A stretch of DNA of 64,000 nt, from the NCBI RefSeq assembly GCF_000688335.1, contig NZ_JHZX01000001.1, forward strand, positions 3,224,001 through 3,288,000. Reading direction: 5' to 3'. The notes beneath the pieces are model-generated. The model worked only from the letters and a program-made list of their open reading frames with translations. It was not told the origin of the DNA and ran no database searches. A program made the translations under genes and the position numbers. Origin of the DNA: Sediminibacter sp. Hel_I_10 (GTDB taxonomy: Bacteria; Bacteroidota; Bacteroidia; Flavobacteriales; Flavobacteriaceae). The stretch's first letter is position 1. Each line of letters opens with the position of its first letter. Shown here piece by piece: positions 54,279 to 60,856 of the stretch.

Positions 54279-55139
54279 TTAGTGACTTAATGTACCTGTG
54301 TTTAAAACGGGCGAGGCGTCTTTATCTCCACAAAGAATGACCATAAGGTTGCTTACCATAGCTGCCTTGCGCTCGTCGTCTAACTCAACAATGTGTCTTT
54401 TTCCGAGTTCTTCTAATGCCATTTCAACCATGCTTACGGCGCCTTCCACAATTTTATGTCGGGCAGCAACTATTGCAGTAGCTTGTTGTCTTTTAAGCAT
54501 GGCATTAGCGATTTCATTAGCATATGCAAGATAACCAATTCTGGCTTCAAGAACTTCAATACCTGCCGTGGTTAGACGTTCATCAATTTCTTTTTCTAGA
54601 GCTTCGCTTACTTCGTTGACACTAGATCGAAGGGTAATGTCTTCATCGACGCCCTCATCGGCAAAATTATCATAAGGATACATGCTTGCTAACTTTCTAA
54701 CTGCAGCATCGGTTTGAACCCTTACAAAGTTTTCATAATTATCGACATCAAAAGCAGCTTTATATGTGTTCTTGACCCGCCAAACCAAGATGGTGCTAAT
54801 CATTATAGGGTTTCCTAACTTATCGTTTACTTTAAGACGCTCACTGTCAAAATTACTTGCTCTAAGCGAAATTTTCTTTTTAGTAAAAAAGGGATTAACC
54901 CAGTAGAACCCGTTTTCTTTGATGGTTCCAATGTATTTGCCAAAGAGCAGTAATACTCTCGATCCATTGGGTTGTACCATTACAAAACCAGGTGCAATAA
55001 ATAAAGAAAAGACGGTTGCTAGACCGTAAATGGCATGTTTAAATGTAATGATAGCTATAATGCTACCAAAAAATAGCAAAATAAACAAGAGGAGCATTAA
55101 GTAGCCGTTGGTTGGGGTAATGATTTTTTCTGATTTCAT
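54279..55139 (-). CDS. SPFH/Band 7 domain membrane protein
   Basis: 286 residues. Two N-terminal hydrophobic segments (LMLLLFILLFFGSIIAIITF and AIYGLATVFSLFIAPGFVMV) are followed by an SPFH domain (VLLLFGKYIGTIKENGFYWV, NPFFTKKKISLRASN, TAGIEVLEARIGYLAYANEI) and a short coiled-coil C-terminus. Such stomatin/flotillin-like proteins form membrane rings and are tied to membrane quality control. It is co-transcribed with the RHH regulator. A sigma-54-type promoter upstream points away from it. Confidence 0.9.
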   Translation of the reverse strand: MKSEKIITPTNGYLMLLLFILLFFGSIIAIITFKHAIYGLATVFSLFIAPGFVMVQPNGSRVLLLFGKYIGTIKENGFYWVNPFFTKKKISLRASNFDSERLKVNDKLGNPIMISTILVWRVKNTYKAAFDVDNYENFVRVQTDAAVRKLASMYPYDNFADEGVDEDITLRSSVNEVSEALEKEIDERLTTAGIEVLEARIGYLAYANEIANAMLKRQQATAIVAARHKIVEGAVSMVEMALEELGKRHIVELDDERKAAMVSNLMVILCGDKDASPVLNTGTLSH

Positions 55140-55223
55140 TGGTTTGGTGTGTTAAGTTTTCAATATGATATTAATTTCATATCATAAAGATATATAAAAA
55201 ATTTTTATCATCAAAATCAATTT

Positions 55224-55239
55224 TGGCATGGCCTTTGCT
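55224..55239 (+). promoter_or_regulatory. Sigma-54-type (-24/-12) promoter
   Basis: TGGCATGGCCTTTGCT matches the RpoN consensus TGGCACGnnnnTTGCW at nearly every fixed base, with GG and GC exactly 10 nt apart. It points to the right, into a stretch with no ORF that ends in a strong terminator. Confidence 0.65.
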
Positions 55240-55249
55240 TAATGTGTAT

Positions 55250-55365
55250 TGTAAATGTTTACGATGATGTTAGCAGAGGAGTGATTACCTCGTATAACGG
55301 AGTAGCATTTCACATTTGGTTGGTTAGTTAGTAAAAAAGCGCCTCATATTTGAGGCGCTTTTTTG
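55250..55365 (+). ncRNA. Candidate sigma-54-dependent small RNA, about 115 nt
   Basis: Predicted start about 12 nt after the -12 element; end at the hairpin at 55333-55365. There is no plausible ORF (the longest ATG frame is nine codons). Internal hairpins are possible: GTAAA/TTTAC and GAGG/CCTC. A 12-nt unpaired-looking motif TTGGTTGGTTAG at 55316-55327 precedes the terminator and recurs before another terminator near 60.8 kb. The neighbours are an SPFH gene transcribed away and a hydrolase gene converging on it. Confidence 0.5.
55333..55365. terminator. Rho-independent terminator of the candidate small RNA
   Basis: 14-bp stem AAAAAAGCGCCTCA / TGAGGCGCTTTTTT with a 4-nt loop. It is too far (about 70 bp) from the stop of the convergent hydrolase gene to be only its terminator, but could serve both. 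Confidence 0.92.
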
Positions 55366-55434
55366 ATTTTATAAACGATAGAAATGAATTTTACTTGAGG
55401 TTGAAGTTCTCAAGCTGAAATAGCTCCTGTTGTT

Positions 55435-56376
55435 TTAATGTTTCAGAATAAAATTAGAGACAATCATTATAAGTTCTTCAGAAACAGGTCTAGAAGATTC
55501 ATTATAAGACTTTGAATTTTCTAAAGTGTCGCCTTCAATGGTAAACAGCACGTGATTCATGTCTTTGATGATTTCAAGTTCTGCCGTTTCTGAAGCATCT
55601 TTAAGTAACTGTGCTTCGGCTTGAGAGACTTGAAGATCTTTGGTGCCGTTGACTATAAGTTGAGGCATTTCTAATGTGGGTAAAATTTCAGCAGGGTTAT
55701 ACTTCATCCAATTGATCATAAAAGGTTGCACATCGGCTCTAAAGATAGATCCCAAGGCCACGGGATAGTCACTAGTGGTTTTGCCGGCCTTTAAACTCTC
55801 AAAAGCCTTTTTTGTGCCTTCTATAAGAGATGGATCCATCGCGCCTATTTGATTAACAACAATCTCATCAATGGTTCGTCCTGCACCTGCTAACGAAATA
55901 AAACCGTCGGCTTTATCTTTAGCGGCTAGCATACCTACCAAGCTTCCTTGGCTATGTCCAACAACATATATTTTTGAGTACGTTCCTTCCGCAATAAAAT
56001 AGTCTAGGACTGCTTTTGCATCAATTACGAAATCATCAAAGGTTGTATTGGGATCAATCTTTTTCATTTTGATTTGCTTCACAACACGTTTATCATATCT
56101 AAAAGTGGCAATGTCATTTTTTGCCAATCCTGTCGCTAACTTTTTTAAAGAATTATTTTGAAGCAGATTTTGATTGCCGTTACGGTCTGTGGGGCCAGAA
56201 CCTGCAATGATGATGGCCAAAGGCCGCTTTTTAGTCTCTTTAGGTTGAAGTAGCGTACCATCTATCATTTTATTAATGGCAATATCTTCGGAAACGAGCG
56301 TGCTATCTTGACTGTAAAGGGAAAGACTAATTAGACTAAAAAAACTAATGCTAATGAATTGGAATATATATTTCAT
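55435..56376 (-). CDS. Secreted alpha/beta hydrolase
   Basis: 313 residues from ATG 56376, which gives the signal peptide MKYIFQFISISFFSLISLSL; an upstream in-frame start at 56403 would only add polar residues before it. Hydrolase features: AIIIAGSGPTDRNGNQNLLQ (oxyanion region), nucleophile Ser in VVGHSQGSLVG, acid in NGTKDLQVS and His in DMNHVLF. Typical of serine esterases/peptidases in the periplasm. Substrate not known. Confidence 0.87.
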   Translation of the reverse strand: MKYIFQFISISFFSLISLSLYSQDSTLVSEDIAINKMIDGTLLQPKETKKRPLAIIIAGSGPTDRNGNQNLLQNNSLKKLATGLAKNDIATFRYDKRVVKQIKMKKIDPNTTFDDFVIDAKAVLDYFIAEGTYSKIYVVGHSQGSLVGMLAAKDKADGFISLAGAGRTIDEIVVNQIGAMDPSLIEGTKKAFESLKAGKTTSDYPVALGSIFRADVQPFMINWMKYNPAEILPTLEMPQLIVNGTKDLQVSQAEAQLLKDASETAELEIIKDMNHVLFTIEGDTLENSKSYNESSRPVSEELIMIVSNFILKH

Positions 56377-60651: not shown

Positions 60652-60823
60652 TCGAACTTATTTAATTGAAATGCCATTGAGTTAAGGACAAAATTTATAA
60701 AGCACCATTGCTGGTGATAATCCCATTAAATTTACATAATTACTAAGTATTGGTAATTACTTCTTATCTTAAGAAGATTGGTTGGTTAGACCTCAGTAAT
60801 TTAAAAATTGCTGAGGTTTTTTT
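60652..60823 (+). ncRNA. Tentative small RNA or attenuated leader upstream of hemerythrin
   Basis: The right boundary is a terminator; the left boundary is a guess from a weak -7-like element. It contains a small hairpin CACCA/TGGTG near 60700 and the motif TTGGTTGGTTAG at 60778-60789, also present before the terminator of the sigma-54-driven candidate near 55.3 kb. It could be a separate RNA or an attenuator for the hemerythrin gene. Confidence 0.35.
60790..60823 (+). terminator. Rho-independent terminator 33 bp before the hemerythrin start
   Basis: 12-bp stem ACCTCAGTAATT / AATTGCTGAGGT (one T-G pair), 4-nt loop, seven T. The position, upstream of a same-strand gene with no gene before it, is unusual. 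Confidence 0.85.
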
Positions 60824-60856
60824 AATTTAGTATTATATAAAAATAAATTTTTAATT

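Follow-up and report, generated by a model that had tools for sequence, protein, structure and literature searches.

A predicted sigma-54-controlled small RNA family of Flavobacteriaceae, with a tail that recurs on mRNAs of the same promoter class

We identified a predicted small RNA of about 118 nt (55250..55367, + strand, with the start placed by its spacing from the -12 element) in the window, i.e. the whole stretch of 64,000 nucleotides of Sediminibacter sp. Hel_I_10 that was analysed. The element comprises a sigma-54 (RpoN) -24/-12 promoter TTTGGCATGGCCTTTGC (55222..55238, + strand), with key bases that do not vary among the 24 homologous loci, a structured body with a closing stem P1 and a nested hairpin P2 (55250..55314, + strand), an unpaired tail UUUGGUUGGUUAGUUAG (TTTGGTTGGTTAGTTAG; 55315..55331, + strand), which is the conserved core, and an intrinsic terminator with a stem of 15 bp (55332..55365, + strand, readable on both strands). 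It has its own promoter and terminator, contains no reading frame and is conserved as RNA, as expected of a stand-alone small RNA. That it represents a family of small RNAs is well supported by sequence comparison and held with high confidence, with sigma-54 as its probable controlling factor. It is also well supported that the tail is the working end and is common to mRNAs of the same promoter class. The family extends over many genera; its promoter class can be named, its working end is defined and its stress regulon is probable. The first-pass annotation of this locus had proposed a promoter of the RpoN type in front of a noncoding unit that ends in a terminator, and had named conservation in relatives as a check, all of which stood; a specific link to the adjacent SPFH/RHH gene pair was not supported; neither the conserved tail nor its presence on other RpoN-type transcripts was part of that picture.

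Structure, conservation and spread of the RNA

An alignment of 23 loci (L024 is cut by its contig end and was left out) showed identities of 100% for the -24/-12 element and 89% for the terminator, the two parts whose conservation in relatives the first-pass annotation had named as a check on its reading. Identity was 81% in the spacer, 72% between -12 and +1, 87% in the body, 96% in the tail (55316-55331) and 50% behind the terminator; conservation picks up again at about +1 and stops past the terminator. The claim of an ORF-free stretch of about 115 nt was borne out, with no + strand ORF of at least 40 aa in 55240-55331, and the hairpin at 55332-55365 is terminator-like as had been proposed, with 15 counted pairs instead of 14 and a T-run behind it. 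A scan of the window with Rfam 15 gave no match at the gathering cut-off, and the sub-threshold matches centre on the terminator.

The predicted fold of 55250-55367 consists of the closing stem, the nested hairpin, the unpaired tail and the terminator. Compared with shuffled sequences, the whole RNA had a z of -5.2 and the body without the terminator a z of -0.62; the body alone is no better than shuffles, and the case for it rests on covariation. Kinship among the sequences inflates both of the following results: in a 22-sequence alignment of the Psychroserpens group, 92.7% of cells were paired and four pairs had changed on both sides, and in an arm-swap analysis of 116 distinct bodies out of 119 loci, P1 arms paired with their own partner at a mean of -7.6 kcal/mol and with the partners of others at -5.4 kcal/mol (z -13.5; control region z -1.8). 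None of the slid versions of the body structure equalled the real one on any measure. RNAalifold returned no pairs for a MAFFT alignment of 58 sequences of mixed genera, in which the 3' arm of P1 is misaligned, and the arm-swap and the Psychroserpens-group alignment were used instead. Body length ranges from 50 to 72 across loci.

A homology search with 241 intergenic bases against 57 genomes gave long matches in 24 of them, namely all 23 of the genus (including Hel_I_10) and one genome of another genus (G027). In a pattern scan, promoter and tail were found together in at least 119 genome stretches; because the scan demanded both, it shows spread and not conservation. Genera among the matches listed include Winogradskyella, Psychroserpens, Lacinutrix, Olleya, Kordia, Gelidibacter, Hyunsoonleella, Joostella, Salinimicrobium and others, and the four of the listed genera that were looked up all belong to the Flavobacteriaceae. 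The remaining bins among the 80 titled matches listed are named only as Flavobacteriaceae, Flavobacteriales, Bacteroidia or Bacteroidota. The 16-mer TTTTGGTTGGTTAGTT, which is too strict in that the Hel_I_10 genome itself has none, occurs in 6 of 395 genomes of the class, 3 of 14 sampled within the Flavobacteriaceae and 3 of 381 outside; with 10 matches in 8 genomes for the reversed control, there was no sign of this motif outside the family.

A covariance model derived from 22 sequences of RNA body plus tail, with the promoter excluded, was run on 100 loci (98 of the 119 listed ones plus L001 and L023; 21 of the 119 were left out). It matched 89 of the 100 at E <=0.1 and revealed 12 further tandem copies in seven loci (L105, L131 and L139 of Olleya, L088 and L115 of Lacinutrix, L159 and L181), which form arrays of 2 to 4 copies. 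Every extra copy has its own promoter, with a -24/-12 element 20-23 bases before the match in 12 of 12 cases (strict TGGCAY-N5-TTG, n = 11; degenerate, n = 1). Arrays of three to four copies, with their own sigma-54 motifs and terminators, are located at L088 3610-4480, L105 168-700, L115 800-1320 and L131 559-1070.

The tail on mRNAs and its complements

Three units of the Hel_I_10 genome run from a sigma-54 motif to a tail plus hairpin: the element, a gene for a secreted-type protein and a gene for a lipoprotein-type protein. The secreted-type protein (363 aa, basic; 3833049-3834137, - strand) has TTTTGGCACGCTAATTG upstream and TTTTGGTTGGTTAG within 25 bases past its stop, and the hairpin behind its gene has a weak T-run and was missed by the terminator script. 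The lipoprotein-type protein (320 aa, from 2372374) has TTTTTGGCATAGCTTTTG upstream and TTTTGGTTGGTTA past its stop. Pfam gave no family above cut-off for either protein, nor did NCBIfam for the secreted protein. Searches of 100 family genomes, which represent 99 genera, recovered the secreted protein in 80 and the lipoprotein in 65. Among the 30 best-scoring loci of each search, which are nearer relatives, the secreted-protein gene had a sigma-54 motif upstream in 29, a tail at most 110 bases past the stop in 26 and both in 25 (L250 is counted as a promoter miss; its start codon may be misplaced), while the lipoprotein gene had the motif in 28 of 28 readable loci and the tail in 23 of 28 (L276 and L293, without a readable frame, are left out).

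TTTTGGTTGGTTA was found in 160 of 199 family genomes, with 550 occurrences as compared with 275 for the reversed control, which is itself present in 138 genomes, so that many of the occurrences are chance. Ninety-one tail sites taken in list order (two samples that differed in the terminator criterion and were searched 2.0 and 1.6 kb upstream; nine G057 and G131 sites, chosen on purpose, are excluded) comprised 54 intergenic sites with a terminator and 37 others. A strict TGGCAY-N5-TTG lay upstream on the same strand at 39 of the 54 terminator-linked sites and at 1 of the 37 others (Fisher p 3e-12, a value that overstates independence because orthologues in different genera were counted apart). 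The one positive among the others, L388, is a lipoprotein tail whose terminator was missed by the script, as is L410. At the remaining 15 of the 54 terminator-linked tails no strict sigma-54 motif was present in the 2.0 or 1.6 kb upstream, and a look with a relaxed motif at nine of these and one further site found little. Of the positive sites in the first sample (n = 21), eight were assigned by reading to small RNAs, six to the secreted protein and seven to the lipoprotein. The promoter of a G131 site is only 23 bases before the tail, so that this RNA would consist of tail and terminator with almost no body.

Within the window, TTGGTTGGTTAG occurs again, with a strong terminator behind it, at 60778-60826, upstream of a hemerythrin-like gene; no sigma-54 promoter was recognised there and no homologue was present among the loci examined. 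The 3' UTR hairpin of the secreted-protein gene (L238-L267) keeps an inner TGCCTCAAAGCA in many genera, beyond the needs of a terminator. The element is located upstream of this secreted-protein gene in L134, L151, L157 and L158, and in L365, L366, L367 and L369 the secreted-protein gene is preceded by a small protein-coding gene that has a tail of its own. A sigma-54-like string in the coding end of the small paralogue was set aside as probably a coding coincidence (codons for WHxDW); the motif also stands before the start of this paralogue gene in L386 and L408. Such promoter-mimicking WHxDW codons hint at a route by which the decayed end of a gene could give rise to a small RNA.

The complement TAACCAACCAAAA is present on the opposite strand directly before a terminator at 8 of 100 fetched sites, all intergenic. 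Five of these (L358, L359, L360, L384 and L397) are in the 3' UTR of one gene in five genera. This gene encodes a cNMP-binding domain (Crp-like, as scanned in the L358 copy) and is convergent with a fumarase-like gene (named from sequence); the flank upstream of the five complements, GGATTGATAGC in four and altered in one, is conserved though it was not searched for. The other three (L361, L362 and L363) lie between stop codon and terminator, each in a different gene and a different genus, and all three genes encode a T9SS sorting domain (PF18962) above cut-off. Because the five Crp-like sites are orthologues, the eight sites amount to about four independent complements. The few T9SS-cargo sites are a pointed lead, and not proof, towards pairing with the mRNAs of secreted proteins. 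A crude end-motif test for T9SS-type genes among 894 reading frames, from loci not chosen for the motif, identified just two such genes, neither with a complement.

In the Hel_I_10 genome, CTAACCAACC has six sites, of which five are in the sense of the tail (the element, the tail-terminator at window position 60778, the secreted-protein 3' UTR and two coding sites) and one is in a tRNA leader. At L202 (genome position 219188), GGTTGGTTAG lies in a leader, immediately before a tRNA-like gene. Thirty-one of the 33 TTGGTTGGTT sites were read; the 11 complementary ones within genes are 65 to 1400 bases from the start and showed no common function. Three sites (L212, L220 and L229) had, according to the script, a terminator behind the complement. 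L212 and L220 were rejected as 3' UTR complements, both being inside coding sequence. L229 is in the real 3' UTR of a gene for a 148-aa secreted-type protein that has no Pfam family; here AACCAACCAA lies 8 bases past the stop and about 35 bases before the terminator, and is a weak complement candidate.

The main alternative, less likely than pairing but a serious possibility, is that the tail of the same sigma-54 small RNA serves not as a pairing seed but as a landing site for an RNA-binding protein (e.g. of the RRM type) or as a 3' stability tag that sigma-54 transcripts have in common. We know of no binding protein for the tail motif, and the complements directly before terminators at 8 of 100 sites, together with the T9SS sorting domain of all three non-Crp-like genes, argue against such a role. 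It would nevertheless agree with a tail that has the same (sense) orientation on small RNAs and mRNAs, where it follows unrelated bodies and lies a short way before the terminator, with the single weak complement in the Hel_I_10 genome, and with the Bacteroides RRM protein RbpB, which is described as binding single-stranded parts of a motif-sharing small RNA family (PMC11697453).

Promoter class and genomic neighbourhood

The GG-N10-GC geometry on which the first-pass annotation had based its RpoN promoter is present at 55225-55238, where GG (55225-55226) and GC (55237-55238) are separated by a 10-base gap within TGGCATGGCCTTTGCT (55224-55239). TTTGGCA and TTTG (TTTGGCA-N5-TTTG) are unchanged and at the same position in 24 of 24 oriented homologous loci; the script that located the promoters needed a TTTGGC...TTG-like string and failed at 0 of 24. 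The last C of the motif as first annotated is retained in 20 of 24. The sigma-54 geometry, GG-N10-GC with a TGGCAC-N5-TTGC-like sequence, is present and conserved. Exact matches to TTGGCAYNNNNNTTGC number four in the 4.1-Mb single-contig genome, matches with at most one mismatch 207 (reversed control, n = 138) and matches to TTGGCAYNNNNTTTG 11 (control, n = 7). By itself the promoter string is not beyond chance in the genome and proves little; it is conservation that decides. RpoN very probably switches on the small RNA gene.

Bacteroidota housekeeping promoters have a TTTG at -33, and their -7 box is TAnnTTTG (PMC9723704); TTTG is found in both elements of the promoter described here. That the conserved TTTG...TTTG is such a housekeeping promoter, and not a sigma-54 promoter, is nonetheless very improbable: the two TTTG are just 12 bases apart, start to start, all 24 loci retain the GGCA behind the first, and the place where a -7 box would sit is among the least conserved stretches (72%). 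We give even less credence to a reading in which the hairpin does no more than terminate the hydrolase gene on the - strand, and the promoter-like string arose by chance or belongs to the SPFH promoter. The hairpin can indeed be read as a terminator in either direction, and the genome is rich in strings that resemble sigma-54 promoters. Against this reading, the -24/-12 bases are invariant while spacer and gap to +1 vary, the body covaries, tandem copies each have a promoter, and the element is still there where SPFH was not found.

Components for a sigma-54-controlled small RNA are encoded in the genome. The rpoN gene (PF04552) is present in Hel_I_10 and in every one of 100 genomes sampled from the family, and four Hel_I_10 proteins have a full Sigma54_activat domain (PF00158). 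One is encoded between miaB- and lptE-like genes (named from sequence) and has a Fis-type HTH and no receiver; it is the first candidate activator, because F. psychrophilum likewise has a sigma-54 regulator that shares a promoter with lptE (PMC9723704, Table 2). Another (L033 1081-2244, Hel_I_10 3499111 region) has a receiver and AAA+ and, by Pfam, no DNA-binding domain; the third is NtrC-like and encoded beside a kinase-like gene (named from sequence), and the fourth is a GAF/PAS protein.

The element is flanked by a divergent SPFH/Band 7 gene (54279..55139, - strand; PF01145), which is not required, and by a convergent alpha/beta hydrolase gene (55435..56370, frame on to 56403, - strand; PF12146), with which it has the terminator in common; by sequence, the hairpin at 55332-55365 can also end this - strand gene. 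Among the 119 listed loci, some of which are covered by stretches that end before a neighbouring gene, matches were found for SPFH (n = 84), the hydrolase (n = 95), DUF819 (n = 86) and the RHH protein (n = 68). A DUF819 match takes the SPFH side in 21 of the 35 listed loci without an SPFH match in the fetched stretch, 51-247 bases from the promoter, and in most of these 21 just 51-69 bases separate the two. As the element persists with DUF819 in place of SPFH, SPFH is not part of the unit, and the specific SPFH/RHH link suggested at first is not supported. SPFH was accordingly dropped as a functional partner, and presence beside the element in 84 of the 119 listed loci makes it no obligatory neighbour.

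A conserved palindromic block (55159..55190, no strand assigned, 90% identity) is located between the element and SPFH. It may hold an upstream activator site but could equally serve SPFH: it is probably the SPFH promoter/operator and possibly an activator site. In relatives the block is TTTGATATCAAA-like; it lies near the expected SPFH start and is a candidate operator for the Arc-type RHH protein.

Putative action and comparison with known systems

We consider it reasonably likely that the element is an RpoN-controlled small RNA that would act in trans, by pairing through its tail. RNA polymerase with sigma-54, activated by an enhancer-binding protein, would transcribe the small regulatory RNA, and its 5' part would fold into a closed stem, setting off the unpaired tail just before the terminator. 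The tail would be the working end, with the same tail at the 3' end of other transcripts from sigma-54 promoters, so that induction of the regulon would fill the cell with RNAs of one 3' module. This module would most likely pair with complementary sequence close to the 3' end of other mRNAs, the putative targets being mRNAs of T9SS-secreted proteins and of the cNMP-binding (Crp-like) regulator. Secretion load under stress would thereby be lowered, in the way that small RNAs of the sigma-E response act on outer-membrane proteins. The sigma-54 regulon of F. psychrophilum, which serves protein quality and envelope stress, is described as comprising chaperones, proteases and envelope genes and one small RNA, Rfp36 (PMC9723704); if the regulon of Hel_I_10 is the same, we infer that the RNA may be made under protein-quality or envelope stress.

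More tentatively, the Flavobacteriaceae might use a two-ended code, in which a -24/-12 promoter is combined with an UUUUGGUUGGUUAG module before the terminator and 3'-to-3' pairing restrains secretion. If so, one stress sigma factor would restrain secretion via contacts between the 3' ends of mRNAs and small RNAs. Few flavobacterial small RNAs have a known function. We have not seen described an arrangement in which one sigma factor has the same 3' motif on its mRNAs and on its small RNAs, with the complement on the mRNAs of secreted proteins, and our searches of open-licence papers found no description of this RNA, its tail or such an RNA circuit.

Other small RNAs under sigma-54 control, some of them multicopy, are the Qrr RNAs of Vibrio, GlmY/GlmZ and CrcZ. 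These are Gammaproteobacterial and, to our knowledge, their ends are not common to the mRNAs of the regulon; the window is without a match to any Rfam family. The enteric MicA, RybB and MicL are similar in being small RNAs from an envelope-stress sigma factor, one of them from an mRNA 3' end, and differ in that the sigma factor is sigma-E. We know of no common tail motif before the terminator of several mRNAs in their case. Among the Bacteroidota, GibS and FopS of Bacteroides are likewise multicopy small RNAs with a common single-stranded motif, but FopS is described as having housekeeping promoters and a shared seed at the 5' end (PMC11697453). The GibS model scored 19.6 bits on the - strand of the window, below its cut-off of 115. 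Rfp18 of Flavobacterium is a conserved small RNA with a strong fold that is tied to secreted proteases; unlike the element, its predicted pairing region is the third stem-loop, and it is absent from the selected sigma-54 promoters of Table 2 of that source (PMC9723704). Rfp36 of F. psychrophilum has its start site at 840245, and TTGGTTGG is absent from the main text of PMC9723704. As described there, it is alike in being a putative regulatory RNA behind a -24/-12 promoter (promoter class SM4) in the same bacterial family, and it belongs to a regulon of chaperones and envelope genes.
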